From Xanthomonas sp. (GTDB taxonomy: Bacteria; Pseudomonadota; Gammaproteobacteria; Xanthomonadales; Xanthomonadaceae), in assembly GCF_017163755.1 (NCBI RefSeq), contig NZ_JAFIWC010000028.1:1-64000 (forward strand): 64,000 nt of DNA, in the 5' to 3' direction. The notes below the pieces were generated by a model that did no database searches, was not told the origin of the DNA, and saw only the letters and a program-made list of their open reading frames with translations. The first letter of the stretch is position 1; the number at the start of each line of letters is the position of its first letter. A program made the translations under genes and the position numbers. Positions 2,753-18,083 of this stretch are shown piece by piece.

Positions 2753-5700
2753 TCAGAAGTCGTAGCTGAGCGTGACCCGGCCCGAGCGCGGCGCTTGATA
2801 CGCCACCACCTGGTCCCATAGCGGGTTCGTGCTGTTGTCGGGAAGCTGCGAGAACGGATAGATGTTGGTCGCGGTCTGCTCGTTGGTCACGTTGAACACG
2901 TCCAGTCGCAACGCCAGCTTGCCGTCGGCGAACGCAGGCTTGTAGGTCACGCCCAGGTCGAGCTGGGCGATCCAGCCCAGGCGTCCCTGCGAGCCGGGAG
3001 GCGACGGGTCGCCGGTGCCGGTTTCGGCGTTGTAGCAGAAGTGATAGGGGCCACCGGTGATCGCGCTGCCGCCGTATCCGGCCGGGTCCCTGCCGGGATA
3101 GGTGTCGCCGTAGTAGTTGCCCAGGCAGTTGCGCGGCGCGCCCGAGATCAGGCTGAAATTGGCCGATGCGCCCCACTGCGGGGTGAACTGGTAGAAACCC
3201 AGCAGCTTCAGCTGGTGGCGGTGATCGTTGGATTGATCGCCGTTGAAGTGCTCCATCAATGCCGCGTGGTCCCAGCTCTGCGTGGTGGAGACCGAGGCCT
3301 GGCCCTGGTAGCTGCCCAGCGCGCCGCCGGTGCGCCACAGGTCCGAGCGTACCTGGCCTTCGGTGGTGCCGTAGCTGTGCGACCACACGTAGTTGGCCTT
3401 CGCATACCACTTGCCGTCGAACGGACGCTCCAGATTGAATTCCAGCGCCGAATAGTTGCGCTTGAACTCCGGGAAGCCCGCCGCCTGGCGGCTCACCGAC
3501 ACCTCATGGAACTGCCCGTCGGTGCCGATCACGCCCCAGGTGTTGGTCTGCCCGGGGTTGATCAGCGCCGCGCCGGAGACTTGCGACCAGTCGATGGTGA
3601 CGCCCTGCGCGGCGGCGGCCTCGATCAGCGCGGTGTTGGAGACGTCGTAGTTCTGGTCGTCGATACCGGCGTTCAGGCGGCGATGGGTGCCGCGGAACCC
3701 GAACACCCAGCCGCTCTCCAGCTGCTGGGTGAAGCCCAGGATGATCTCGTCCTGGTTCTCGCCCTCGATGTCCTTGGCCACCGCCGTGCGCACGTCGGCG
3801 ATGCGGCCGAAGCGCGAGTTGGCCGACACCGCCGAACCCAGCTGCTGGGCGAGCACCGGCGTGCCGTCGGCGTTGACGCCGCTGTAGGTGAAGTAGGTGT
3901 CGGTGTTGGTCGCCGGCGTGAACAACCCGACCGGCGACAAAGGCAGGCCCAGATAGTAGCGGCCGACGCTGCCGAACACCTTCAGGCTGGAATCGCCGTT
4001 GACGTCCCAGCTGAAGCCCAGGCGCGGCGCCCAGGCATCGTCGACGTCGATGTAGGCGGCGCCGAACGGGGTGTAGTTGGTGAACTCGTCCTTGCGCAGC
4101 CCCAGGCTGAGCAGCAGGTTGTCGGTGACCTGCCACTTGTCTTCGATGTAGTACGCGCGCTGCTTGGCTTCGTAGGAATAGAGGCTGGTGTTGACGGTAC
4201 GGATGACGTAGTAGCCCTGCGCCCCGTAGACCGGATCCACCAGGCCCGGACTCGGCGCGCCGACGCCGCCGGCCTCGTTCGCCGACTGGCTCACCAGGCC
4301 GCCGGTCTGCAGGCCGAGCGGATCGCTGGTCTGGCCGTACGTCCACGAATAGCCGGGGCCCGACAGGATCGACCCCACGTCCGTGCCCTTGGACTTCTGG
4401 TTGTCGATGCCGAAGTTGAGCGTGTGCTTGCCCACGCGCCATTCCAGATTCAGCCGCTGGTTGTCCTTCTCGTATTCGCGGTCCGGCGAACTCACCGAGG
4501 TGACCAGCTGCCGGCCGATGATCGGCGCGCCGCCGACATAGGCGGGGTTCTGCAGCGCCGCGCTGATGATCACCGGCCCGTTGCCGGCGTCGTAGTTGTA
4601 CGCGGTCAGTTCGTCCGGGGTCTTCATCTTGCCGTACAGCGCGGTCAGGGTGATGTTGTCGCCGAAATAGCCGGTGTATTTTCCGGAGAACAGCGTCGGC
4701 CCGGTCTTCCACGTGGACTCGTCGGTGAGATAGCTGCCGCGCTCGCGATTGACGTAGTCGTAGCGGTAGATGGAGCCTTGGGTTTCGGCTTCGTCGCTGG
4801 CGCCGGTCACCTCCAGCAGATGGTTGTCGGTGATGTACCAGTCCAGCTTGGCGTACCAGCGCTTCTGTTCGTAGTCGTAGTCGGTCAGGCCGCCGGTGCG
4901 TCCGTTGTCCGAATCGCGATTGGAGACCGCGCGCACGCCGTCGGAATCCACCTTCTCCGCGGCCAGGAAGAAGAACAGCTTGTCCTGGACGATCGGACCG
5001 CCGATGTAGGCGCTGTACGTGGTCTGGCTGGCTTCGGCCTCGCTCTGCGGCTGGTACAGGCCGTTGGCCGAGCGCGCGTACCGGTAGGCGGCGTTGTTCA
5101 CGCTGCTGCCCTGGCTGTCGGGACGCCAGTACAGATCGCGCTGGTTGGCCTTGAGGCCGTTCGGCTCCCAGATCACCGCCGCGCCGAACTTCCATTCGTT
5201 GCTGCCGCGCTTGCCGATCTGGTTGATCACCCCGCCGTTGGAGCGGCCGTACTGCGCGCCGTAGCCGCCGGTGAAGATTTCCTGTTGATCGATGGCGCCA
5301 TACGGCAGGGTCAGCCCGCCCAGGCTGTTGCTGGCGGTGGTGGTGTTGAAGCCGTTGAGATAGTAGGCGTTCTCGCTGGCCGCCGAGCCGCCGAAACTGG
5401 GCAGCGAGCCGCCGAGCGGGCCGTTGTCGAAGCCGCCGCTGTTGACCACCACGCCCGGCGCCAGCAGCGCGATGGCTTCGGCGGTGCGCCCCAACGGCAA
5501 CTGCTGCAGTTGTTCGGCGGTGATCACGGTGCGCGTGTCCACGCTGCTCACGTCGATCGGCGACAACCCCGAGGCGTTCACGGTGACCCCTTCCAGGGTC
5601 TGCACACCGGCCGCGGAGAACGACACGTCGGTGCTCGCGCCGACGGTGATGCCGACGTTCTCGCGGGTCTGCACCACCGCGCCATCGCGCTTGACCGTCA

Positions 5701-5920
5701 CCGTATAGGTGCCCAGCGGCAGGTTGCCGGCCTGATAGCGGCCGCGCGCGTCCACCGGCACCTCGCGACTGAACCCGCTGTTGTTCTCCACCAGCACGCT
5801 CTGGCCGGCGCCATCGGCGACGCTGCCGGCGATGCTGCCGGTGGTGGACTGTGCGAAGGCGCCGCCGGCGGCGGCGGCCAGCGCGAGCGCCAGGGCGCTC
5901 TTGCGGATCAATCGATTCAT
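2753..5920 (-). CDS. TonB-dependent receptor, Oar-like, with N-terminal carboxypeptidase-like domain
   Basis: A 1055-aa outer-membrane receptor. A signal peptide (MNRLIRKSALALALAAAAGG, cleaved after AFA) precedes a carboxypeptidase-regulatory-like beta domain (about residues 26-95). Then come a plug domain containing VVVNSGGFDNGPLGG and a YGAQYGRSNGGVINQIGKRG element, and a long beta-barrel ending in an aromatic residue (TLSYDF). The start at 5920 has GGGAGAG five bases upstream; the frame upstream of it is an antisense shadow of hemL. Length and architecture match the Oar/OmpA-related receptors common in Xanthomonadaceae. With the secreted dipeptidase downstream, peptide import is likely. 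Upstream lie an inverted repeat (6020-6059) and two direct CGGGTAGG boxes (6112-6138). Confidence 0.92.
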   Translation of the reverse strand: MNRLIRKSALALALAAAAGGAFAQSTTGSIAGSVADGAGQSVLVENNSGFSREVPVDARGRYQAGNLPLGTYTVTVKRDGAVVQTRENVGITVGASTDVSFSAAGVQTLEGVTVNASGLSPIDVSSVDTRTVITAEQLQQLPLGRTAEAIALLAPGVVVNSGGFDNGPLGGSLPSFGGSAASENAYYLNGFNTTTASNSLGGLTLPYGAIDQQEIFTGGYGAQYGRSNGGVINQIGKRGSNEWKFGAAVIWEPNGLKANQRDLYWRPDSQGSSVNNAAYRYARSANGLYQPQSEAEASQTTYSAYIGGPIVQDKLFFFLAAEKVDSDGVRAVSNRDSDNGRTGGLTDYDYEQKRWYAKLDWYITDNHLLEVTGASDEAETQGSIYRYDYVNRERGSYLTDESTWKTGPTLFSGKYTGYFGDNITLTALYGKMKTPDELTAYNYDAGNGPVIISAALQNPAYVGGAPIIGRQLVTSVSSPDREYEKDNQRLNLEWRVGKHTLNFGIDNQKSKGTDVGSILSGPGYSWTYGQTSDPLGLQTGGLVSQSANEAGGVGAPSPGLVDPVYGAQGYYVIRTVNTSLYSYEAKQRAYYIEDKWQVTDNLLLSLGLRKDEFTNYTPFGAAYIDVDDAWAPRLGFSWDVNGDSSLKVFGSVGRYYLGLPLSPVGLFTPATNTDTYFTYSGVNADGTPVLAQQLGSAVSANSRFGRIADVRTAVAKDIEGENQDEIILGFTQQLESGWVFGFRGTHRRLNAGIDDQNYDVSNTALIEAAAAQGVTIDWSQVSGAALINPGQTNTWGVIGTDGQFHEVSVSRQAAGFPEFKRNYSALEFNLERPFDGKWYAKANYVWSHSYGTTEGQVRSDLWRTGGALGSYQGQASVSTTQSWDHAALMEHFNGDQSNDHRHQLKLLGFYQFTPQWGASANFSLISGAPRNCLGNYYGDTYPGRDPAGYGGSAITGGPYHFCYNAETGTGDPSPPGSQGRLGWIAQLDLGVTYKPAFADGKLALRLDVFNVTNEQTATNIYPFSQLPDNSTNPLWDQVVAYQAPRSGRVTLSYDF

Positions 5921-6019
5921 GCTCTCTCCCCGAAGATTGAAAATCGTTGGCATCCCAACGAAAAAGGCGCAGCGCGACGCCGGGCGGCGATCCGCCCTAA
6001 CACTCTGGAAAACCTGCCC

Positions 6020-6059
6020 GATGCATGACCAATCACCATCGGCTATCAGGTCATGCGTC
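6020..6059. promoter_or_regulatory. Inverted repeat between divergent receptor and hemL
   Basis: Arms GATGCATGACC (6020-6030) and GGTCATGCGTC (6049-6059) match at 10 of 11 positions with an 18-nt spacer. The site is 100 nt upstream of the receptor ATG and 180 nt upstream of hemL, in the 315-bp divergent intergenic region. It could be an operator or a transcript hairpin. The regulator is not identified. Confidence 0.4.
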
Positions 6060-6111
6060 CCCTGGCCGCTTCGATAGTAGGCAGCGCGCCACGCGGCACA
6101 CCCGCCCGCGA

Positions 6112-6138
6112 CGGGTAGGTCCCCCGCTTGCGGGTAGG
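6112..6138 (+). promoter_or_regulatory. Two direct CGGGTAGG boxes, 19-nt pitch
   Basis: CGGGTAGG occurs at 6112-6119 and again at 6131-6138. The identical octamer pair with the identical 19-nt start-to-start spacing is found at 17820-17846 upstream of the second receptor operon. The octamer resembles the MalT box (GGGGA-T/G-GAGG, bound as direct repeats), and a MalT-type regulator gene lies 1.6 kb away at 7750. Binding by that regulator is inference. Confidence 0.5.
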
Positions 6139-6235
6139 GGCGGCATGGCGCAGACCGGCGGCAGCCGCGACAATGGGCGACATCGCTCCGCGCCCGGCCT
6201 ATCGGCCCCGCCAGCCCCGTCAAGGATTCCCCGCC

Positions 6236-7528
<1,293 letters not shown>

Positions 7529-7749
7529 ACCCGCAAAGCGTGCGCTCGCGGCTTTTGCTTTTGTAGCCAACGTGTCATAAGTTGGCCACAGACCGCCAAC
7601 GGACGGCAGAGGGCGGGGGCCCATGGATTCGGCGCAGCTTCGTTGCCTTCCGCGGTCCGCGCGGCAGGGCGCGCAGCGCGGCCGCTTCCGTACCGTTTCC
7701 GGAACCGCCAGAAGGCGCGACGGAAGCAGATCCAGACATTCCTGGCGTC

Positions 7750-10530
7750 ATGCTCAAGCCTGTCACGTTGTTGAACCCGCGTTCGTCGCCGGGCGCGCAC
7801 GATTGCATGGCTGTGCCCGATTGGGTGCTGGTCGACAAGCTGGTGCCGCCGCGGCAGCGTGTGGCTGCGGTGCCGCGCGAAGCGTTGCTGCAGCACCTGC
7901 AACGCGCCGCCGAGCTGCCGCTGGCGCTGCTGCTGGCGCCACCGGGCTTCGGCAAGACCACGCTGCTCGCGCAATGGCATCAGCGCCTGCGCGAGCGCGG
8001 CGACATCGGCGTGGCGTGGTTGTCGCTGGACGAGGACGACGCCGATCCGGCGCGCTTCCTGGCCTACCTGGCGCTCGCCGTGCAGGAGGCGGGCCTGGAG
8101 CTGGGCGCGGCGCTGCAGGGGCAACTGCTGCAGCACGGCCAGGACCTGGACGTGGCGACGACGCTCGCCGGCCTGATCCGCGCGATCCGCGCCGCGCCGC
8201 GGCGCCTGCTGGTGATCGTCGACGACTACGACCGCGGCCACAGCGCCGCGGTCGACGATGCGGTGCTGCGCCTGGTCGACCACGCCGGCGGCCCGTTGCA
8301 TCTGCTGCTGGCCACCCGCCGCGCGCCGGCGCTGCCGCTGGCGCGCCTGGCGCTGCAGGGCCGGGTCGAACGCATCGGCCCGCGCGAGCTGGCGCTGGAC
8401 GAACACGAGACGGTGGCGCTGCTCGGTCCGCAGGTGCCGCTGGAGATGGCGCGGCAGCTGCGCCGGCAGACCGAAGGCTGGGCCGTGGCGCTGCAGCTGG
8501 CGGGGCTGTGGATGGGCGACGACGAACAGCGCCGGCACGACATCGGCCGCTTCTCCGGGCGCACCGCGGAACTGGCCGCCTACCTGGCCGAGCAGGTGTT
8601 CAACGACCTGGATCCGGAGCTGCGCGAGTTCCTGCTGCAGCTCTCGCCGCTGGACCGCTTCAACGCCGCCCTGGCCGACGCGGTGCGCGATCGCCACGAC
8701 AGCGGCGTGCTGCTCGCGCGGCTCGGGCATTTCCAGGGCCTGCTGGTGTCGCTGGACGGCGAGCACGAATGGTTCCGCTTCCATCCGCTGTTCGCCGACT
8801 ACCTGCACCAGCAGCTGGAGCGCACCGCGCCGGCGCTGCCGCCGTTGCTGCACCGGCGCGCGGCGCACTGGTTCGACGCGCACGGCCAGCTGCTCGACTC
8901 GGTGCGCCATGCGCTGCGCGGCGACGCCATCGACGCGGCGGCCGACAGCATCGCCCGCGCCGGCACCTGGCAATTGCTGCTGCGCCACGGCACCGCGCCG
9001 GTGCGCGCGCTGCTGCGCCTGTTCCCGCGGCGCAGCGTCGGCGAACGGCCGGCGCTGAACCTGACCCAGGCCTACCTGCACATGAAGCTGGGCGAGTTCG
9101 ACCATGCGCAGACCCTGCTCGAGCGCTTCCGCGATTTTCCCGAGCCGCTGCGCGCGCCGTTCGAGCGCGACTACACCGTGGTGGTGGCGCTGCTGCGCGA
9201 CCTGCTCGACCAGGTGTGCGGCAATCCGCGCGGCTTGCCGCAACTGGCCGCGCAGGCCGCGGCGCTGGACGAGGACGACCATCTGGGCCGCGGCACGCTG
9301 TGGTGCATCTGCGCCACCACCGCGCTGGGCCGTGCCGAGTTCGACGCCGCCGAGCGCTATGCGCGCATGGCCGGCACCGCGATGCAGCGCAGCGGCAGCG
9401 AGGTCGGCGCCAACTACGCGCTGACCCACCTGGCGCAGAGCCACTACTACCGCGGCCAGCTCGACCAGGCCGAGGCGATCTGCCGCCAGGCGCTGGCCCT
9501 GGCGCAGCGCCAGCAGCAGCTCGACGGCGCCTTGCACGCGGTCGGCCAATGCCTGCTGGCGCAGTTGCAATGCGAGCGCGGCCGCTACGACGACGCCGCC
9601 GACTGTCTGCAGCCGGCGCTGGCCTTCCTGGAGCAGCACGACGGCTGGCTGGACATCTTCGCCGCCGGCTACGAGACCGCGCTGGTGCTGGCGCGGCAGC
9701 GCGACCGCAGCGGGCGCGCCGCGCTCGACCTGCTCGACCACATCGATCGCGTCGCGCACGCGCGGCGGCTGAGCCGGCTGAGCGACCTGGCGCTGGCCTG
9801 GCGGCTGGACGTGCTGCTCGACCAGCCGCCTTCGCCGGCGGTGGACCTGCTGGTGGCGCGCAGCGGCGGCGAGTCGCGCTTCGCGCACGCGCTGGCGCAG
9901 CCGCAGGACTGGCGCTTCCGCGCCGCGCTGGGGTTCGCCCTGGCGCGCTGGCATCGCCTGTCCGGACGCGCCAGTGCCGCGCTGGCGGTGCTGCATGGCG
10001 TGGAGGCGGCCTGCGAAGCCGCCGGCAACCGCTGCCATCTGGCCCGAACCCGCGCGCACATCGCGCTGGTGCTGCACGATCGCGGCCAGTCGGCGGCGGC
10101 GCTGCCGTATCTGCGCGACGCGCTGGCGCACGTCGCCGCCACCCAGAGCTGGCAATGCGTGCTGGAGCTGGGCGTACCCGGCAAGGCGCTGTTGCGCCTG
10201 GCGCGGCAGCAGGACCCGCAGGCCGCGCCGAACACCACGCTGGCGATGACGATCCAGACCCTGCTGGACAAGCTGCGCCACGACCAGGACAACGGCGCCG
10301 AACTGTTCAGCGAGCGCGAACGGGAAGTGCTCGCGCTGCTGGCGCAGGGCGATGCCAACAAGCAGATCGCGCGCCGCCTGGCGCTGTCGGAGAACACGGT
10401 CAAGTTCCACCTGAAGAACCTGTACCGCAAGCTGGAGGCCGGCAGCCGCGAAGCGGCGCTGGCCAGCGCGCTGCAGCGCGGGCTGTTGCGGCGCGCAGCG
10501 CCGCCGGCGCTGGACCCGGGGTCGGACTGA
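7750..10530 (+). CDS. MalT-type LAL transcriptional regulator (LuxR-family, ATP-binding)
   Basis: About 926 aa. A STAND-type NTPase region starts near residue 63 with Walker A LLAPPGFGKTTLL and Walker B LLVIVDDYD. A long helical TPR-like sensor region follows, and the protein ends in a LuxR helix-turn-helix (FSEREREVLALLAQG, then SENTVKFHLKNLYRKL) from about residue 853. This is the MalT/LAL layout: ATP and an inducer drive oligomerisation and binding to tandem DNA sites. No maltose genes are present. The gene lies between two receptor operons that both carry paired CGGGTAGG boxes, so they are candidate targets. The start is uncertain: ATG at 7750 is chosen, ATG at 7807 is an alternative, and the frame is open back to 7582. 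Confidence 0.88.
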   Translation: MLKPVTLLNPRSSPGAHDCMAVPDWVLVDKLVPPRQRVAAVPREALLQHLQRAAELPLALLLAPPGFGKTTLLAQWHQRLRERGDIGVAWLSLDEDDADPARFLAYLALAVQEAGLELGAALQGQLLQHGQDLDVATTLAGLIRAIRAAPRRLLVIVDDYDRGHSAAVDDAVLRLVDHAGGPLHLLLATRRAPALPLARLALQGRVERIGPRELALDEHETVALLGPQVPLEMARQLRRQTEGWAVALQLAGLWMGDDEQRRHDIGRFSGRTAELAAYLAEQVFNDLDPELREFLLQLSPLDRFNAALADAVRDRHDSGVLLARLGHFQGLLVSLDGEHEWFRFHPLFADYLHQQLERTAPALPPLLHRRAAHWFDAHGQLLDSVRHALRGDAIDAAADSIARAGTWQLLLRHGTAPVRALLRLFPRRSVGERPALNLTQAYLHMKLGEFDHAQTLLERFRDFPEPLRAPFERDYTVVVALLRDLLDQVCGNPRGLPQLAAQAAALDEDDHLGRGTLWCICATTALGRAEFDAAERYARMAGTAMQRSGSEVGANYALTHLAQSHYYRGQLDQAEAICRQALALAQRQQQLDGALHAVGQCLLAQLQCERGRYDDAADCLQPALAFLEQHDGWLDIFAAGYETALVLARQRDRSGRAALDLLDHIDRVAHARRLSRLSDLALAWRLDVLLDQPPSPAVDLLVARSGGESRFAHALAQPQDWRFRAALGFALARWHRLSGRASAALAVLHGVEAACEAAGNRCHLARTRAHIALVLHDRGQSAAALPYLRDALAHVAATQSWQCVLELGVPGKALLRLARQQDPQAAPNTTLAMTIQTLLDKLRHDQDNGAELFSEREREVLALLAQGDANKQIARRLALSENTVKFHLKNLYRKLEAGSREAALASALQRGLLRRAAPPALDPGSD

Positions 10531-10693: not shown

Positions 10694-10840
10694 CCCTCAC
10701 CCCAACCCCTCTCCCGGCGGGAGAGGGGCCAAGGCGCGCTGTGGCGGCTCCCTTCTCCCACCGGGAGAGGCGCTAAGGCGCGCGTGGCGGCTCCCTTCTC
10801 CCACCGGGAGAAGGTGGCCCGCAGGGCCGGATGAGGGTAC
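10694..10840. repeat. Xanthomonad-type intergenic repeat (CCCTCACCCC...GGATGAGGGT)
   Basis: The element starts CCCTCACCCCAACCCCTCTC and ends CCGGATGAGGGTAC. Inside are three palindromic CTCTCCC/GGGAGAG or TTCTCCC/GGGAGAA hairpins. The internal unit with GGCTCCCTTCTCCCACCGG is tandemly duplicated (about 10748 and 10790). Similar repeats are frequent in Xanthomonas intergenic DNA. It fills most of the 350-bp convergent gap between the LAL regulator and azurin and may act as a bidirectional terminator. Confidence 0.75.
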
Positions 10841-10880
10841 GAGCGAAGCCTCGCGCACCCGACTCTTCCCTGATCCATTT

Positions 10881-11336
10881 TCAGCCGAAGACGAACTTGC
10901 CCTTCATTATCGCCCAGTGGCCCGGGAACGAGCAGAAGAAGGTGTAGTCGCCGCCCTTGCTCAACTTGGCGGTGGAGAACTTGACGGTATCGGTCTGCCC
11001 GGCGCCGATCACCTTGGTATGGGCGATGACCCGCGGGTCGTTCTTCGGCAGATAGTTGTCGGCCAGGCTGGAACCGGTGCCGGCATTGGCCACCGCCTGG
11101 AAATCGGCGGTCTTGGTCAGCACCCAGTTGTGGCCCATCACCGCCGCGTCCAGCTTGCCGCTGTGCTTGAGCGTCAGCGCCACCTCGGTGCAGTCGGCGG
11201 CGAGCTTGATCTGCGACTGGTCGAACGTCATCTGGTCGGTGCCGGTGATGGTCACCGCACAGGTCTTGGACCAGGCCGCGGGCGCGAACGCCAGTGCGGC
11301 CAGGACCAGCAACGGAGACAGATACTTCGGTTTCAA
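10881..11336 (-). CDS. Azurin (type I blue copper protein)
   Basis: A 151-aa periplasmic cupredoxin that shuttles electrons. Copper ligands are visible: His in MGHNWVL, then Cys, His and Met in CSFPGHWAIMKG near the C-terminus, plus the disulfide Cys near the mature N-terminus (KTCAVTITGTDQM). No ATG fits. A TTG at 11336 directly precedes the signal peptide (KPKYLSPLLVLAALAFAPAAW) and has GAGGAG six bases upstream, so I take TTG as the start. The gene follows the aminotransferase gene by 151 nt on the same strand and may be the last member of the amine-oxidation operon or have its own promoter. A role as electron acceptor from cytochrome c is plausible but inferred. Confidence 0.92.
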   Translation of the reverse strand: MKPKYLSPLLVLAALAFAPAAWSKTCAVTITGTDQMTFDQSQIKLAADCTEVALTLKHSGKLDAAVMGHNWVLTKTADFQAVANAGTGSSLADNYLPKNDPRVIAHTKVIGAGQTDTVKFSTAKLSKGGDYTFFCSFPGHWAIMKGKFVFG

Positions 11337-11487
11337 GACGGACTCCTCGAACGTTGGGGATGGCGCAGTGTCGTGCGTGTCGCCGCCGCCCGATGCGCGC
11401 GGGCCGGCGTCGCCCCGACTGTCTGCCTTTGCGCGAACGTTTGTCAACGCGCTTCGTTCGTGCATTGCAACATGCGCTGCGCCGGCC

Positions 11488-12663
11488 TCAGGCGTCGCGG
11501 AAGAACGCCTGCAGCGGATCGCGCAGCGCCACCGCCGGCGCCACCGGCAGCGGCCCGCGCTTTCCCGCCGCGACCTGCGCGAACGCTTCCTTGAAGCGCG
11601 CCATCTCCGCCGCGGTGCCGATGGTGATGCGCGAGCAGGTCGGCCATACCGGCCAGCTGCGCCCGACGAACACGCCGTAGCTGGCCATCGCGTCCATGAA
11701 CTCCTTCGCCGGCCGCTTCACGTCGACCATGAAGCAGTTGCTCTCCGACGCGGTGCAGGCATGGCCCTGCGCGCCCAGCCAGGCGACGACGTCCTGGCGC
11801 AGCGCGCGGTTGAGCGCGCGCCGCTGCGGCACCAGCGCCGGATCGCGCAGGCTGGCCAATCCGGCCGCCACCGCGGTCACCGGCAGGCTGTTGACGCTGT
11901 AGAACTTGAGCCGGTCCAGCAGGTCCGGACGCGCCACCGCGTAGCCCAGGCGGATGCCGGCCATGCCGTAGAGCTTGGAGAAGGTGCGCAGCACGATCAC
12001 CTCCTCGCCCGCCGCGACGCGGTCGACCATGCTCGCCGCGCTGTCGGCGAAATGCAGGTAGGCCTCGTCGACCACCAGCACGCTGCCCTTGGGCTTGTGC
12101 GCCAGCGCGTAGTCCAGGTCCTTGCGCGCGGTGACCGAGCCGGTGGGATTGTTCGGGTTGCAGATGTAGATCACGCCGGCCTTGGCGTCGACCGCGCACA
12201 TCGCCCGCACGTCGTGCGCATGGTCCTTGCGCAACGGCACCTTGATCACCGTGGCGCCGTTGCGCGCGGCCGCGCGCCAGCCGGACTCGAAGGTGGGGTC
12301 GGCCGTGACCAGCGCCGCGCCCGGCGAGGTGAAGGCGAGCATGGCGTAGTCCAGCGGCTCGGTGGAGCCGGCATAGGCCATCAGATGGTCCATCGGCACG
12401 CCGAGCTGGCCGGCCAGCGTCCGCAGAAACTCCACTTGCAGCTCGCGCAGGTAGCGCCCGCCGCTGGGGCCGATCTCGGTCATCGCGCGCAGCGCCGCCG
12501 GCGACGGGCCGAGCGGATGCTCGTTGGCGTTGATCATCACCGGCGCCAGTCCCGCGGCCGGCGCGGCGACGGCCTGCGCCAGCCACGGCGCGCCGAGGCC
12601 GGCGCCGGCGAGCAGTGCCGAGTCCTTGAGGAAGTTGCGGCGCGAACGCGACGGCTGCTGCAT
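11488..12663 (-). CDS. Tat-exported HisC-like PLP aminotransferase
   Basis: A 391-aa fold-type I aminotransferase resembling histidinol-phosphate aminotransferases. It has CNPNNPTGS, VVDEAYLHF and the PLP lysine in RTFSKLYGMAGIRLGY. Unlike cytoplasmic HisC it begins with a textbook twin-arginine signal, SRRNFLK followed by a hydrophobic stretch, so a folded PLP-loaded enzyme should be exported. The start at 12663 has AGGGAG upstream. It sits 30 nt after the RidA-like gene and in series with amine oxidase and cytochrome c, which argues against histidine synthesis and for periplasmic amino-group chemistry. Donor and acceptor are unknown. Confidence 0.88.
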   Translation of the reverse strand: MQQPSRSRRNFLKDSALLAGAGLGAPWLAQAVAAPAAGLAPVMINANEHPLGPSPAALRAMTEIGPSGGRYLRELQVEFLRTLAGQLGVPMDHLMAYAGSTEPLDYAMLAFTSPGAALVTADPTFESGWRAAARNGATVIKVPLRKDHAHDVRAMCAVDAKAGVIYICNPNNPTGSVTARKDLDYALAHKPKGSVLVVDEAYLHFADSAASMVDRVAAGEEVIVLRTFSKLYGMAGIRLGYAVARPDLLDRLKFYSVNSLPVTAVAAGLASLRDPALVPQRRALNRALRQDVVAWLGAQGHACTASESNCFMVDVKRPAKEFMDAMASYGVFVGRSWPVWPTCSRITIGTAAEMARFKEAFAQVAAGKRGPLPVAPAVALRDPLQAFFRDA

Positions 12664-12693
12664 GACGGTGCTCCCTGGACGATGGCGAAGCGG

Positions 12694-13203
12694 CTACGGG
12701 CGCACGGCGACCACTTCGATCTCGATGCGGTACAGCGGATTGCCCAGCGCGGCGATCTGGAACGCCGAGCGCGCCGGCAGATTGGGCTGCTCCTTGGTGC
12801 CGAAGAACTGCCGGTAGCCTTCCATGAAGCCGGCGAAGTCCATCTTGCCGCCCAGCGCCGGATCGCCGACCAGGAACGCCTGCATCTTGACCACGTCGCC
12901 CATGCCCAGGCCCATGCCTTCGAGCTGGGCCTTGAGCTGCGACAGCACGCTGATGGTCTGCGCCTTGGTGTCGCCGTAGGCGGCCTGCGAGTCCTTCGGC
13001 GCGCTGGCGTCGATCGGGCGCGGCACTGCGCCGCTGAGGTAGACGGTGGTCTTGCCGGCCGGGATCTCCACCGCGGCGGAAATCGGGAAATCGCTGTTGG
13101 GGATCTTGTGCCGCACGACCTCGGCGGCGCCGGCCAGTGCCGGCAGCCACGACGCGGCGCACAGGCCGCCGCGCAACACCCATGAAACGGAAGAACGACG
13201 CAT
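12694..13203 (-). CDS. Secreted RidA/YjgF/UK114-family protein
   Basis: A 169-aa protein. An N-terminal signal (MRRSSVSWVLRGGLCAASWL, cleaved after AGA) precedes a RidA domain with VYLSGAVP, QAAYGDTKAQT and a YRIEIEVVAV C-terminal strand. RidA proteins hydrolyse reactive enamines or imines to keto compounds and ammonia. This one is longer than cytosolic RidA and predicted periplasmic. The canonical RidA arginine of the RNP/CxR region is not obvious, so activity must be tested. It lies 39 nt after the cytochrome c gene and 30 nt before the aminotransferase; AGGA precedes the ATG. It fits as the step that hydrolyses the imine made by the amine oxidase. Confidence 0.85.
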   Translation of the reverse strand: MRRSSVSWVLRGGLCAASWLPALAGAAEVVRHKIPNSDFPISAAVEIPAGKTTVYLSGAVPRPIDASAPKDSQAAYGDTKAQTISVLSQLKAQLEGMGLGMGDVVKMQAFLVGDPALGGKMDFAGFMEGYRQFFGTKEQPNLPARSAFQIAALGNPLYRIEIEVVAVRP

Positions 13204-13242
13204 GCTGGAATCCTCGCAGATGAAGGGAAGGAACGACGCATC

Positions 13243-13671
13243 TCAATGCCGCAGCGCGCGCACCTCCTCGGCGCCGAGCCTGCCGGGATAGTCGTTGCCG
13301 AACTGCGTGCGCACATACTGCACCACCTCGGCGACCTGCTGGTCACTGAGCATCGCGCCGAAGCCGGGCATGCCGCCGCGGCCGTCGAGCACCATCATCG
13401 CCACGTAGGGCGCCGCCGCCAGCTTCGGATTGCCGGCCAGCGCGGGATACTCGCCGCCGCCGAGCGCGCCCTGCCCGCCGGGCATGTGGCAGCCCTGGCA
13501 GATCGCGGCGTAGACGGTGCTCCCGGAAGCGGTGGAGAACGTGGCCTGCGGATACAGCGGCGTGGCATCGGAACTCTGCGCCAGCGCCGGAACGGCCGTC
13601 GGCGGCAGCATCAGGCCGACGATCGCCGCGGCGATCGCCACGCACGCCATCCAGCCGCGCCAGCGCGTCAT
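13243..13671 (-). CDS. Periplasmic c-type cytochrome
   Basis: A 142-aa monohaem class I cytochrome c. A signal peptide or membrane segment (ACVAIAAAIVGLMLPPTAVP) is followed by the haem-binding motif AAICQGCHMPGG (CxxCH) and a distal Met in GRGGMPGFG, with a typical C-terminal helix (QQVAEVVQYVRTQF). Its ATG overlaps the amine-oxidase stop by 4 nt (ATGA), implying translational coupling and a shared job. By analogy with NicA2-CycN of Pseudomonas putida S16, where a flavin amine oxidase-family enzyme uses a dedicated cytochrome c instead of oxygen, it is the probable electron acceptor. That is inference. Confidence 0.92.
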   Translation of the reverse strand: MTRWRGWMACVAIAAAIVGLMLPPTAVPALAQSSDATPLYPQATFSTASGSTVYAAICQGCHMPGGQGALGGGEYPALAGNPKLAAAPYVAMMVLDGRGGMPGFGAMLSDQQVAEVVQYVRTQFGNDYPGRLGAEEVRALRH

Positions 13672-15266
13672 GCGCGGCCTCCCGCGACCACGCGCCGGTG
13701 CAGCCGTTCGATCGCATCCAGCGCCGAGGTGATCGCGCCTTCCTGCCACGCCGGAATGTACGAGGCGTGCTCGCCGGCCAGCGCGATACGGCCATCGACC
13801 TGGCACAGGTTCTCGTAGTGCTCGGCGCGCGCGGCCTCGCTCCACATGCCGAAGCAGCCGTGGGTGAACGGCACCCGATGCCAGCCCACGGCGATGCCGT
13901 TGTCGAACTCGCGCGGGTACTGCGGATGCAGCTGGGCGCCGTATTCCACCGCCTTGGCCACGCGCTGCTGCGGGCTCATCGAGGTGAACTCGAACGCCTC
14001 CAGTCCCCACACGTAGGCACCGAGCAGCACGCCCTTGCCGGCGCTCTGGAAGCCAGTGCTCGGATAGCTGATCAGGCTGATCGGCAGGTCGGTATAGCTG
14101 ATGCCGCCGTAGATCGCCTCGTCCTCTTCCCAGAAGCGGCGCTTGAACTGCAGCCCGACCTTCACCGACGCCGCATACGGCACCTGGCCGATCGCGGCGG
14201 CCATCTTCTCGCCCACCGCGATCGGGATGCGGCTGAGGATCGACAGCGGGATCGTGCAGATGCACCAGTCGGCCTGGGCCACCTGCTCGCCGCCGCTGCC
14301 GTCCTGGTAGGCGACGCTGACCCCCTGCGCATCCTGGTCGATGCGGGTGACCTTGGCGCCGTAGCGTATGCCGTCGCCGATCTGGCGCGCGAACGCCTTG
14401 CCGATCTGGTCCATGCCGCCAACCGGCTGGAACATCGTGGTCTGCATCTCGTAGTTGTTGCCCGCCGCCAACGTGGTCCACAGCCGCGAGCGCAGGATGT
14501 CCTGGGTGGTGAACGGTTCGGAGAACTCCGGCTTGCCGGACAGGCCGCCGCCGGGATATCTGGCGAAGCCGCGGCGCTCGCTGCTCTCGCGGCCCTTGAC
14601 GTAGCCGAAGTCCTTGTCCAGCGCGCCCCAGTTGCGCAGCGACTCGAGCAGGACCTCCTGGTCCTCGCGCTGCACCAGCGCATCCAGCGCGCCTTGCCGG
14701 GTGCTCTTGGCCAGCAGTTCGGCCACATGCCCCTTGTAGTCGGCATCGATGTCGCGGAAGCGCTGCGGCTTGCCGCCGAAGCCCTCGCGGCTGTGCAGCA
14801 GCGCATTGAAGTTGAGCTGCACGAACGGCTCCAGCGCCACCCCGAACCGCTTGCAGTAGGCCAGCACCGCCTTGTGGTGGTGCGGGATGCGCCACGGGCC
14901 GGGATTGAGGTACATCCCGTCGTCGAAGCCGCACTGCTGCTCGAAGCCGCCCAGTTCGGTGTAGCGGTCGCCGCCGCGCAGCGTCCAGTTGCGCCCGCCC
15001 GGACGCGCGTTGTACTCGAGCACCTGCACCCGGTAGCCGGCCTTGCGCAGTTCGTAGGCCGCGGTCAGCCCGGCCAGGCCGGCGCCGAGGATCAGCACCG
15101 ATGCGCCCCTGGCGTCGCCGTCCAGCCGCGGCACGCCGTTGAAGCGCGATTCGGCGGCCATGCCCAGGCTGTGCATCGCCTGGTACATCATCGCCCCGCC
15201 GCCGGCCAGGCCGATCCTGGCGAGCAACTGGCGGCGGGTCATCGCCCCTGGGGAATTGGCTTGCAT
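13668..15266 (-). CDS. Tat-exported flavin amine oxidase-family dehydrogenase
   Basis: A 532-aa FAD-dependent flavin amine oxidase (MAO/LAAO-like). N-terminal TRRQLLARIGLAGGGAMM is a Tat-type signal. The FAD dinucleotide motif VLILGAGLAGLTAAYEL lies near residues 57-73, followed by LEYNARPGGRNWT. The C-terminal FAD segment GRIALAGEHASYIPAWQEG and the terminal helix are also present. The enzyme should oxidise an amine or amino acid to an imine in the periplasm. The next gene, overlapping by 4 nt, is a cytochrome c, which suggests dehydrogenase rather than oxidase behaviour. It follows the TonB receptor gene by 97 nt. The substrate cannot be read from the sequence. Confidence 0.9.
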   Translation of the reverse strand: MQANSPGAMTRRQLLARIGLAGGGAMMYQAMHSLGMAAESRFNGVPRLDGDARGASVLILGAGLAGLTAAYELRKAGYRVQVLEYNARPGGRNWTLRGGDRYTELGGFEQQCGFDDGMYLNPGPWRIPHHHKAVLAYCKRFGVALEPFVQLNFNALLHSREGFGGKPQRFRDIDADYKGHVAELLAKSTRQGALDALVQREDQEVLLESLRNWGALDKDFGYVKGRESSERRGFARYPGGGLSGKPEFSEPFTTQDILRSRLWTTLAAGNNYEMQTTMFQPVGGMDQIGKAFARQIGDGIRYGAKVTRIDQDAQGVSVAYQDGSGGEQVAQADWCICTIPLSILSRIPIAVGEKMAAAIGQVPYAASVKVGLQFKRRFWEEDEAIYGGISYTDLPISLISYPSTGFQSAGKGVLLGAYVWGLEAFEFTSMSPQQRVAKAVEYGAQLHPQYPREFDNGIAVGWHRVPFTHGCFGMWSEAARAEHYENLCQVDGRIALAGEHASYIPAWQEGAITSALDAIERLHRRVVAGGRA

Positions 15267-15363
15267 CGCATCTCCGAAGAATCACTCGCCGGCACCGCCG
15301 CCCGCGCTCCGCGCCTGCATCGTGCGACGCGGCGCGGAGCGCAGCGGCCGGGCGCCGTTCGCA

Positions 15364-17682
15364 TCAGAACTTGTAGGACAGGCTGGCGAAGATCTGCCGC
15401 GGCGCGACCAGGTTGTAGGAGCCGGAACTCTCGTTCGGGAACACCGCGCCGATCGCGTCGTCCTTGTCGAGCAGGTTGTACACGGACACCTGCAGCCGGC
15501 CGCCGGGCATGAACCCGTCGCTGCCGCCCTGGTAGCCGACGCTGCCGTTGACGATCACCGTCGAATCGACCTGGTCGGTGTTGAGCGTGTCGCCGTAGCG
15601 CTTGCCGGTGTACTTGGCGTCGAGATTGGCGAAGAAATGTTCGCCCTCCCAACCGCCGTTGACGCTGAACATGAACTTCGGCGAATCCGGCACCTCGTTG
15701 CCCTTGACCGGCACTAGGTCGCCGCTGACCGGGCCGAAATAGTCGTCCTGGAATTCGGACTTGTTGTAGGTCAGCGACGCGCCCAGGCGCCAGCCGTCGG
15801 CCGGACGCCACATGCCGGAGACTTCCGCACCGTAGGTCTCCACGTCGCCGACGTTGGCGTAGATGGTCGGCGCCACCACCAGCGGATTGGGATCGGTCAG
15901 GGCGATGATGCGGTTGTCGTAGTTCACCTTGTACAAGGCGATGTAGCCGCTCCAGATCGCCGACTCGGCGCGGATGCCGACGTCGATGTTCTTCGACTCC
16001 TCCGGCTTGATGTCCGGGTTGAACGCGCCGGAAGTCAGCGCCAGGCGCGGCGCCGAACTGAAGTTCTCGGCGTAGTTGCCGAACACCTGCACGGTCTGGC
16101 TGAGCGAGAAGCTGGCGCCGACCTGGGGCTGGAACCAGTCGCTGTTCTTGATCGTGGTCTGGCGGGTGAGGCTGTTGTTGAAATCGTCCAGGTTGGCGAT
16201 GCCGCGGTAGTCGCGCTTGACGTCCAGGCCCTTGGCGCCGAACTCCAGGGTCAGGCGATCTTCCAGCAGGCGCAGCGTGTCCTTGACGTAGAGCTGCTTG
16301 ACGTCGGTGGAGAAGTGGTTGTCGTAGTAGATGACGATCGGCAACGCCCCCTTCAGCAGCGCGCCGCTGGCCGGGTCCAGGTTGTACAGCGGGCGCACTT
16401 GGTCGAAATCGTAGGTCTCGTACCAGCCGCCGATCTCCAGCTTGTTGTGCTCGGTTTCCCACGACACCGCGGCGGTCAGCCCGTAGCGGTCGCCGCCCAT
16501 GATCTCCTCGCGCCGGGTCATCGCGCCGACGTGGGTGACGTTGCCGTCGGCATCGACCTGCTGCGGATCGAGGATGGCGATGTCGGTGCGTCCGGGGGTA
16601 CCGGCGATGGCGTCGTTGTACAGCCCGGTGGCGGTGCTCGGCGGGGTGCCGCCGATGCCGTAGCCGTGTTTGTTCTCGTAGTAGCCGGTGAACTTGAAGC
16701 CGATCGCGTCGTCGAACAGGAAATCGCCGCCCAGGCTCAGCAGCGAATCGCGGCGCCCGTTCTGCCACTCGGTGTAGTGCTCGGCGTCGACCTCGGGATT
16801 GCCGGTGATGCGCTCGTGCAGGTCCCAGGCCACCGAGCCGTCGGAGTTGTACGCCTGCACGTCGTAGTCCTTGCGGTTGTTGTAGATCCAGCCCAGGGTC
16901 AGGCTGCCCACGTCCCAGGCCTGGCGGATCTTGGCCTCGAAGTGGTCGCTCTTCTGCGTGGCCTGCTCCAGGTCCCAGACCCCGCCCTGGGTACGCGAGG
17001 CGGACACGTAGGCCGTCGGCCCGCCTTCCCACCAGTCCGGCGTATCCAGCCGCACGAACGTGCGCACCAGGCTGTCCGAGCCGATGGTCTGGGTTAGGTT
17101 GCCGCTCCAGCTGTCGCCCCCCTTCGGCGCCAGGCTGGTGTAGCGGATGGCACCGCCGAGCGCGTGGTAGGACGGCTGGGTGACGTCGCCGGAGCCGGCG
17201 GAGACGGTCACGTCCATCAGGTTCTCGCTGGAAACGTAGCGGGTGATGGGTCCGCCCTCGCGGGTGTCGTAGGTCTCGATCGGGATGCCATCCAGGGTCA
17301 CGCCGATCTGGTTGGCGGAAAAGCCGCGGATGCTCATCGAGTCGCCGAACTCGTACAGGCCGAACGGATCGGTGGTCTGCACGTTGACCCCGGGCAGCGT
17401 GGCCAGCAACGCCTGCGGCGCCACGCCCGGCACCTGGCTTTCGATTTCCGTCACCGAAATGGTGGCGGTGGTGCGGCTGGAGCCGGTGCCGACGACGCTG
17501 ATCGCGTCCAGCGTGGTGGCCTGGCCACCGCCGCTTTCGGCCGACTGCGCCTGCGCCCACAGCGGCGCGCCGGCCAGGCATAGCGCCATCGACGCCAACG
17601 GTAGCGCACCCGGGCGGCGCGAGCCGCGGACGATGACTGAAACGGCATGCGCCAGACGTGCGGCCTTGATGCGTTTACCCAT
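15364..17682 (-). CDS. TonB-dependent receptor of the amine-oxidation operon
   Basis: A 772-aa outer-membrane receptor. After a long signal region (ending near LWAQAQS) come a TonB-box-like stretch (TTLDAISVVG), the plug (PGVNVQTTDPFGLYEFGDSM, then SIRGFSANQIGVTLDGIP) and a barrel ending in Phe (FASLSYKF). It is shorter than the other three receptors here and of a different subfamily, resembling siderophore/small-molecule receptors. It is the first gene of a same-strand series with amine oxidase, cytochrome c, RidA, aminotransferase and perhaps azurin, so it probably imports the nitrogenous substrate. SD is weak (AGGGGCG). Its upstream region holds the paired CGGGTAGG boxes at 17820-17846. 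Confidence 0.92.
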   Translation of the reverse strand: MGKRIKAARLAHAVSVIVRGSRRPGALPLASMALCLAGAPLWAQAQSAESGGGQATTLDAISVVGTGSSRTTATISVTEIESQVPGVAPQALLATLPGVNVQTTDPFGLYEFGDSMSIRGFSANQIGVTLDGIPIETYDTREGGPITRYVSSENLMDVTVSAGSGDVTQPSYHALGGAIRYTSLAPKGGDSWSGNLTQTIGSDSLVRTFVRLDTPDWWEGGPTAYVSASRTQGGVWDLEQATQKSDHFEAKIRQAWDVGSLTLGWIYNNRKDYDVQAYNSDGSVAWDLHERITGNPEVDAEHYTEWQNGRRDSLLSLGGDFLFDDAIGFKFTGYYENKHGYGIGGTPPSTATGLYNDAIAGTPGRTDIAILDPQQVDADGNVTHVGAMTRREEIMGGDRYGLTAAVSWETEHNKLEIGGWYETYDFDQVRPLYNLDPASGALLKGALPIVIYYDNHFSTDVKQLYVKDTLRLLEDRLTLEFGAKGLDVKRDYRGIANLDDFNNSLTRQTTIKNSDWFQPQVGASFSLSQTVQVFGNYAENFSSAPRLALTSGAFNPDIKPEESKNIDVGIRAESAIWSGYIALYKVNYDNRIIALTDPNPLVVAPTIYANVGDVETYGAEVSGMWRPADGWRLGASLTYNKSEFQDDYFGPVSGDLVPVKGNEVPDSPKFMFSVNGGWEGEHFFANLDAKYTGKRYGDTLNTDQVDSTVIVNGSVGYQGGSDGFMPGGRLQVSVYNLLDKDDAIGAVFPNESSGSYNLVAPRQIFASLSYKF

Positions 17683-18083
17683 TGCGATCGCCCCTAGTGG
17701 CTGGTGATGGAATCCGCACTCCCTGCCCGTGCGCTGCGGCTCCCCGAACCGGCGCGGCGCCGCGGCGAGGCGGCATGGACGACCATAACCATCGCTTCAC
17801 TTCTCACCGATCGTTGCCGCGGGTAGGTGCCGGGTGGGCGGGTAGGTCGGCGACGGCGCGCGTGGCCCGCGGCCGCGCTCAGCAGAGCGCGCGATACTGC
17901 GCGCACGGCGGCGATCAACCGTCCGCGATCGCGCTCGGTGCGCGCCCAGCGCGGCCTACCCGAAGGTACGCGCGCCATCGATCCCGCCGCGAAACGGCGG
18001 CGGCTATCGCTGGCGACGGCGGATGCAGGCGCTGGCGGTCTTGGCTACCCTGGGCGTCACTTGCAGCCTCGGCGCGCGCTCGC
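17683..18083. other. Upstream region of the receptor operon and HAD gene
   Basis: No convincing gene. The region should hold the receptor promoter on the minus strand. It contains the paired boxes at 17820-17846 and a third CGGGTAGG on the minus strand at 17955-17962. An open frame with ATGs at 17682 and 17775 runs in phase into the HAD gene, but its composition looks non-coding. The short ATG frame at 18023 is out of phase with the HAD domain. Confidence 0.5.
17820..17846 (+). promoter_or_regulatory. Two direct CGGGTAGG boxes, 19-nt pitch (second locus)
   Basis: CGGGTAGG at 17820-17827 and 17839-17846, 138 nt upstream of the receptor ATG. Octamer, orientation relative to the receptor gene and 19-nt pitch are the same as at 6112-6138. 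A third copy, inverted, lies at 17955-17962. I found no other CGGGTAGG in the intergenic sequence of this window. A likely operator of the MalT-type regulator encoded at 7750-10530; not proven. Confidence 0.55.

Follow-up and report, generated by a model that had tools for sequence, protein, structure and literature searches.

The window analyzed here, a stretch of 64,000 nucleotides from Xanthomonas sp. (contig NZ_JAFIWC010000028.1 of assembly GCF_017163755.1, a genome of 5.07 Mb in 75 contigs), carries a cassette of predicted exported proteins centered on a flavoenzyme related to the L-amino acid oxidases (LAAOs), accompanied by a cytochrome c and a predicted imine deaminase of the Rid3 type; we refer to the three as LAO, CYC, and RID. 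They belong to a run of six consecutive genes, all on the minus strand between positions 10881 and 17682, which in the direction of reading encode a TonB-dependent receptor, LAO, CYC, RID, a pyridoxal 5'-phosphate (PLP)-dependent aminotransferase (AT), and an azurin. LAO (13668–15266) matches PF01593 with 207 bits and has an N-terminus of the twin-arginine translocation (Tat) type, CYC (13243–13671) is a monoheme class-I-type cytochrome c with one CxxCH motif (PF13442, 54 bits), and RID (12694–13203) belongs to PF01042. The layout agrees with the original prediction from the bare sequence: LAO and CYC overlap by 4 nt, CYC and RID are 39 nt apart, and RID and AT 30 nt, with wider gaps at the outer junctions (97 nt between the receptor and LAO; 151 nt between AT and azurin). 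The export signals that it had assigned to each of the six were likewise recovered by eye, being of the Tat type in LAO and AT, with hydrophobic N-termini in the rest.

We compared the window with 137 further loci, comprising 22 from a search of its family, 29 from a draw across its phylum, six more from its genus, and 80 from a named set. The last is made up of the best 80 of at least 579 confirmed matches found via LAO peptide patterns, and its cytochrome count of 80/80 is biased because of that selection; the phylum draw is the fairest sample. Four of the 138 loci have a LAO core identical to that of another locus, leaving 134 distinct cores, which include sequences used to build the search models. 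At E ≤1e-80, 22 of the 198 family genomes and 13 of the 20 genus genomes encode LAO (the window's own counted); at E ≤1e-60, 27 of 398 phylum genomes do. A match to the cytochrome model adjoins LAO in 123 of the 134 distinct loci, a Rid gene lies within 2.5 kb of it in 99, and in 92 the three follow one another on the same strand as LAO, then cytochrome, then Rid, an order that is never reversed where both partners occur; this arrangement therefore exceeds chance. Within the phylum draw, a cytochrome is found near LAO in 19 of the 29 loci and a Rid gene in 20, with neither an aminotransferase nor an azurin near it in any (0/29 each). In three loci (L107, L108, and L112), the place of the monoheme protein between LAO and Rid is taken by an open reading frame (ORF) for a diheme cytochrome, which scores 22.6 bits in L112 (one of the 19) and is missed by the cytochrome model in L107 and L108; adding the latter two brings the count to 21/29. 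The core of the cassette is LAO–CYC–RID, and the cassette is a real, conserved functional unit. The claim that an exported flavoenzyme, a cytochrome, and an imine hydrolase constitute one conserved unit is thus borne out by these counts, and the wider co-occurrence expected in relatives holds for this trio, whereas azurin is not tied to it and AT is weak as a fixed step. As a separate observation, one locus (L090) contains two convergent LAO–cytochrome pairs, one of them with a Rid gene.

LAO had been described as a flavin amine oxidase. The assignment to PF01593 and to an exported flavoenzyme stands, but that of a generic amine oxidase does not, since LAAO chains top its solved relatives: the best is 2jae, the LAAO of Rhodococcus opacus (RoLAAO; E 3.6e-96, residues 50–527), and the next are a reconstructed tetrapod-ancestor LAAO and other LAAOs. 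By this comparison, LAO is a full-length homolog of a characterized LAAO. None of the best 60 of its 108 matches to solved chains is named a nicotine oxidoreductase, and, as judged from solved chains with the NicA2 sequence itself outside the comparison, its closest relatives are not of the NicA2 type. The motif TRRQLL, Tat type by eye, lies close to its N-terminus, and a regular expression recovers a twin-arginine-like motif in 117 of the 138 LAOs. R97 of LAO aligns with chain residue 54 of 2jae, the presumed carboxylate-binding Arg84 of RoLAAO, a literature search having given no confirmation; of the RoLAAO active-site residues this Arg alone was used, as the numbers of the others failed to fit. 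The column of R97 has Arg in 126 of the 138 LAO rows. We infer from these relationships a substrate of the L-amino acid class.

The LAO tree comprises 53 rows (52 LAOs hand-picked from the 138, plus 2jae; midpoint root) and places the window in a clade of 41 rows with support 99/97. An adjacent cytochrome gene is present in all 40 testable rows of this clade, and in the 41st (L048) the LAO gene ends less than 300 bases before the end of its contig. Eight rows (L103–L106, L109–L111, and L113) form a single branch (100/99) with no convincing cytochrome within 4 kb; five of them have some CxxCH-containing ORF within that distance, none of which is cytochrome-like by eye. The diheme rows L107, L108, and L112 constitute a third branch (100/99); their cytochromes resemble the clade 1 c4-type cytochromes described elsewhere (PMC12224317). 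In that survey, which began from a NicA2 search, the combination of a Tat signal with an adjacent cytochrome c gene (CytC) was predictive of CytC-using dehydrogenases, Tat-only enzymes were fast with O2, and poor O2 use accompanied an adjacent CytC (PMC12224317). The window has both features, namely a Tat signal, recognized by eye and by regular expression, and an adjacent cytochrome c gene, and we predict that LAO is an L-amino-acid:cytochrome c dehydrogenase; by analogy, this would extend the electron-acceptor logic of the 2025 finding to LAAO-type enzymes. The NicA2 and Pnao group resembles the window in its Tat flavoenzyme with an adjacent exported cytochrome c, which occurs in monoheme and diheme forms (PMC12224317), and differs in that the window's enzyme is closest to RoLAAO, has a predicted amino-acid substrate, and includes a Rid protein in its unit. 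The same distribution bears on the alternative that LAO is a true O2-using LAAO producing periplasmic H2O2 for competition, defense, or nitrogen scavenging, with the cytochrome being a peroxide scavenger or incidental. While its nearest solved relatives are LAAOs named as oxidases, and LAO1 of Chlamydomonas makes H2O2 (PMC10805672), the presence of a cytochrome beside LAO in 40/40 testable rows of the clade, the diheme substitution in another branch, and the reported link between an adjacent CytC and poor O2 use (PMC12224317) render this alternative quite improbable.

The best solved relatives of RID are 9bka (PSPTO3006; E 6.2e-36) and 9bkc (PFL1385), both of which are Rid3 proteins active on several imino acids (PMC5619798). 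R145 of RID aligns with the catalytic Arg of PSPTO3006 and PFL1385, and this position is Arg in 111 of the 112 aligned Rid rows and a gap in the other. Being closest to Rid3 and retaining the catalytic Arg, RID is predicted to be an exported Rid3-type imine deaminase. Rid3 proteins hydrolyze the imino acids formed by snake LAAO (PMC5619798), and Rid genes, sometimes those of Rid3, cluster with amine oxidases (PMC4433059). We propose that the locus probably encodes a periplasmic respiratory L-amino-acid dehydrogenase cassette, in which the imine is hydrolyzed by the exported Rid3 protein. The TonB-dependent receptor would admit a ligand, and LAO would convert an L-amino acid to the 2-imino acid, passing two electrons singly to the neighboring monoheme cytochrome c, from which they would reach a terminal oxidase (the host genome has two COX1-type oxidase genes); with such single-electron transfer little H2O2 would be formed. 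The exported Rid3 protein would accelerate the conversion of the imine to a 2-oxo acid and ammonia, the Tat-type transaminase may act on amino or oxo acids of the same pool, and a neighboring MalT-like regulator may control the cassette. What the sequences themselves show is gene content and order, their conservation and linkage, a cytochrome gene beside LAO in every testable member of its clade, and the shared occurrence of LAO and the regulator; the substrate class, the electron acceptor, export, and the parts played by receptor, transaminase, and regulator are inferred.

Several points weigh against this proposal. RoLAAO itself goes by the name of an oxidase, and a sequence does not reveal whether O2 is used. 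The rule that relates cytochrome adjacency to the electron acceptor is transferred here by analogy to a different branch, that of the LAAOs, and the main text of the survey makes no mention of an amino acid oxidase (PMC12224317). The twin-arginine motif is also seen in six of the eight cytochrome-less rows, and therefore a Tat signal alone fails to separate the groups. Rid genes are missing within 2.5 kb of LAO in 35 of the 134 distinct loci. The column of R97 has Tyr in five rows, His in four, Lys in two, and a gap in one (12 of 138), and the substrate may therefore vary. The members of the aminotransferase family NF006580 in the phylum draw lie elsewhere than at LAO (0/29), and among loci related to the window that keep the core, L040 and L045 have no AT and L044 has it in fragments. 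Finally, the interval 10700–18000 has no sigma-70-type promoter-like site against an expectation of 0.4, a count with little meaning at high GC content.

The core is already in print, a precedent absent from the original prediction, as the lao-cccA-ridA trio of Gluconacetobacter diazotrophicus PAL5, an arrangement shared, according to that paper, by Caulobacter crescentus and Xanthomonas (PMC5053998). As described, this trio combines a Tat-signal LAAO related to the R. opacus LAAO with an adjacent cytochrome c and RidA (PMC5053998), and the window likewise has a Tat-type LAAO, a cytochrome c, and a Rid gene adjacent on one strand; a receptor, a transaminase, and a MalT-like regulator are unmentioned in the accessible portion of that paper, the clusters being compared by description. 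A search of the open-access literature for most of the components together matched PMC5053998 alone, which does not contain the receptor term, a scope that does not show absence from print. The additions to the published core are the receptor, the PtaA-like transaminase, and the MalT-like regulator.

Xanthomonas is a plant-associated genus, which counts in favor of a further alternative, namely that the cassette mainly converts L-tryptophan to indole-3-pyruvate in an auxin route serving plant signaling, as proposed for Gluconacetobacter. Insertion mutants of lao in G. diazotrophicus have undetectable indole-3-acetic acid (IAA), leave most tryptophan unused, and lose ~96% of tryptophan-derived indolic products (PMC5053998), and the periplasmic LAO1 of Chlamydomonas, drawn with a RIDA partner, is required for IAA formation from tryptophan (PMC10805672). 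However, LAO1 takes most free amino acids (PMC10805672), LAO beside a cytochrome gene also occurs in Dyella, Mesorhizobium, Solimonas, and Stutzerimonas, and nothing tryptophan-specific was seen in the cassette; we consider this purpose unlikely. The Chlamydomonas LAO1/LAO2(RIDA) system resembles the one predicted for the window in oxidizing L-amino acids outside the cytoplasm together with a Rid protein, and is distinguished from it by peroxide formation and by the lack of a named cytochrome partner in the accessible portion of the report (PMC10805672).

The TonB-dependent receptor (15364–17682, minus strand) has the plug (PF07715) and barrel (PF00593) domains. Its nearest NCBIfam model is TIGR01783, a siderophore receptor, at 128.8 bits and under the cut-off of 223.5. 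In 55 of the 138 loci, the end of a receptor gene lies directly upstream of LAO, and in six more a receptor gene is found only downstream, one of these being weak (L095, 58 bits). We distinguish two types, A and B, both under the cut-offs of every NCBIfam model matched. The receptor of the window is of type A, which is seen in 24 other loci, mostly of Xanthomonas outside the window's genus, and type B occupies the same place in all 12 of the compared same-genus LAO loci (L028–L033 and L114–L119). The possibility that these same-genus relatives are without a receptor was rejected, a different receptor type being found there. DNA identity between the window and five type A loci is 81–86% for the receptor, 80–86% for LAO, and 70–77% for the regulator. 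The receptor has likely been replaced, whether in the lineage of the window or in that of its relatives, and a varying receptor on a constant enzyme core suggests either a single chemistry supplied with different ligands or a loose link. Elsewhere in the window, a long ORF on the minus strand (2753–7624) seems to include the beginning of a further TonB-type receptor, with an N-terminus of the exported kind.

AT (11488–12663, minus strand) passes the cut-off of NF006580 (540.9 bits vs. 444), has the Tat-type motif SRRNFL in its N-terminus by eye, and matches PtaA as its second-best NCBIfam model, under the cut-off (NF051461, 410.8 bits vs. 500). An AT is found near LAO in 38 of the 134 distinct loci, all from the window's family and, where named, from Xanthomonas or Pseudoxanthomonas. 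Members of NF006580 are encoded in 14 phylum-draw genomes, and at LAO in the window only; G479, G536, and G543 have both LAO and such a member at separate coordinates. AT was therefore rejected as a core component on its count of 0/29 phylum-draw loci and 38/134 distinct loci, and the amino-group transfer step of the original prediction, present in the window and missing from L040 and L045, is weak as a fixed step; this Tat-type, PtaA-like transaminase is a lineage-specific addition. A second NF006580 aminotransferase (L260) is encoded in the host genome at C31:34734–35831, and its family is represented in 36 of the 198 family genomes, 18 of which lack LAO. The neighbors of paralogous aminotransferases were viewed in 13 loci, where the reading frames are ambiguous in GC-rich DNA and nothing was drawn from them. 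Dyella acidisoli (L138) has an ORF resembling an aminotransferase (213 bits), in the same orientation as LAO and ~4 kb upstream of it.

PtaA of fluorescent pseudomonads, which is found also in species without pyoverdine, is like AT a Tat-exported PLP transaminase; it converts a glutamate residue of pyoverdine in the periplasm, with its PLP being "somehow regenerated" (PMC6206403). AT differs in falling short of the PtaA cut-off and in being situated in an amino-acid-oxidation cassette. This relationship, together with a receptor whose nearest model is that of a siderophore receptor, albeit under cut-off, could point to tailoring of a siderophore or peptide, whereby the receptor and the transaminase modify an amino-acid residue in a peptide that is being imported or exported, a residue on which LAO would act as well. 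The precedent of the pyoverdine glutamate residue (PMC6206403) agrees with this, but the receptor type varies between close relatives, AT scores below the PtaA cut-off, and a transaminase is missing near LAO in 96 of the 134 distinct loci, which together make tailoring highly doubtful. Returning to the respiratory dehydrogenase cassette, a more speculative and distinctly unlikely elaboration of it is a periplasmic transdeamination cycle. The 2-oxo acids made by LAO and Rid would recharge the PLP of the transaminase, enabling it to deaminate an amine that is brought in by the receptor and not accepted by LAO; the amino group would come back as an L-amino acid to be reoxidized by LAO, with its electrons going to respiration, and Rid would shield the PLP from imines. 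If true, this cycle would explain the regeneration of a periplasmic transaminase, a point that the work on PtaA leaves open (PMC6206403).

Azurin (10881–11336, minus strand; TIGR02695, 185 bits against a cut-off of 105) begins with a TTG at 11336 preceded by GAGGAG, a start picked by eye. Its suggested role as a dedicated electron carrier is not borne out: in L271 (same-genus genome G085) and in L272 and L273 (another genus of the family), it persists at the same site in genomes without LAO, with the regulator gone on one side, the AT–RID–CYC–LAO–receptor genes gone on the other, and hemL-like and HAD/class-III-aminotransferase genes flanking it. Five azurin sites away from the cassette were viewed in all; L271–L273 share this chromosomal site, and L274 and L277 lie elsewhere. 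Azurin is found in 119 of 198 family genomes as against 22 of 198 for LAO; 20/22 genomes with LAO have it, as do 99/176 without LAO (Fisher p=0.002). It is located next to the cassette in 18 of the 22 family loci and 38 of 134 distinct loci overall. Azurin was therefore rejected as a member, since it stays at this site where the cassette is absent, even though it is enriched with LAO, and is probably a neighbor rather than a part of the cassette. The same-genus locus L029 (G186) has a 51-residue azurin match beside the cassette and a full azurin elsewhere in the genome.

On the far side of azurin lies a component that the original prediction had overlooked, a MalT/LuxR-like regulator with GerE and TPR_MalT domains (7582–10530, plus strand), which travels with the cassette. 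At E ≤1e-100 it is found in 18 of 198 family genomes, all 18 being among the 22 with LAO (Fisher p=5e-22, a value inflated by shared ancestry), and it is opposite in orientation to LAO in all 42 loci scoring above 200 bits. In a Pseudoxanthomonas locus (L133), it comes directly after AT, with no azurin in between. None of the 29 phylum-draw loci yielded a match to it, which makes it a local partner within this family.

If our reading is true, the bacterial "L-amino acid oxidases" of an entire branch would be respiratory dehydrogenases that send electrons from amino acids outside the cell into the cytochrome chain and not into peroxide, and many annotated LAAOs would have to be reinterpreted, perhaps including the auxin-linked enzyme of Gluconacetobacter. 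The linked Tat-type transaminase would then offer a natural test case for the recharging of periplasmic PLP enzymes, and the MalT-like regulator a handle on what the cell senses.

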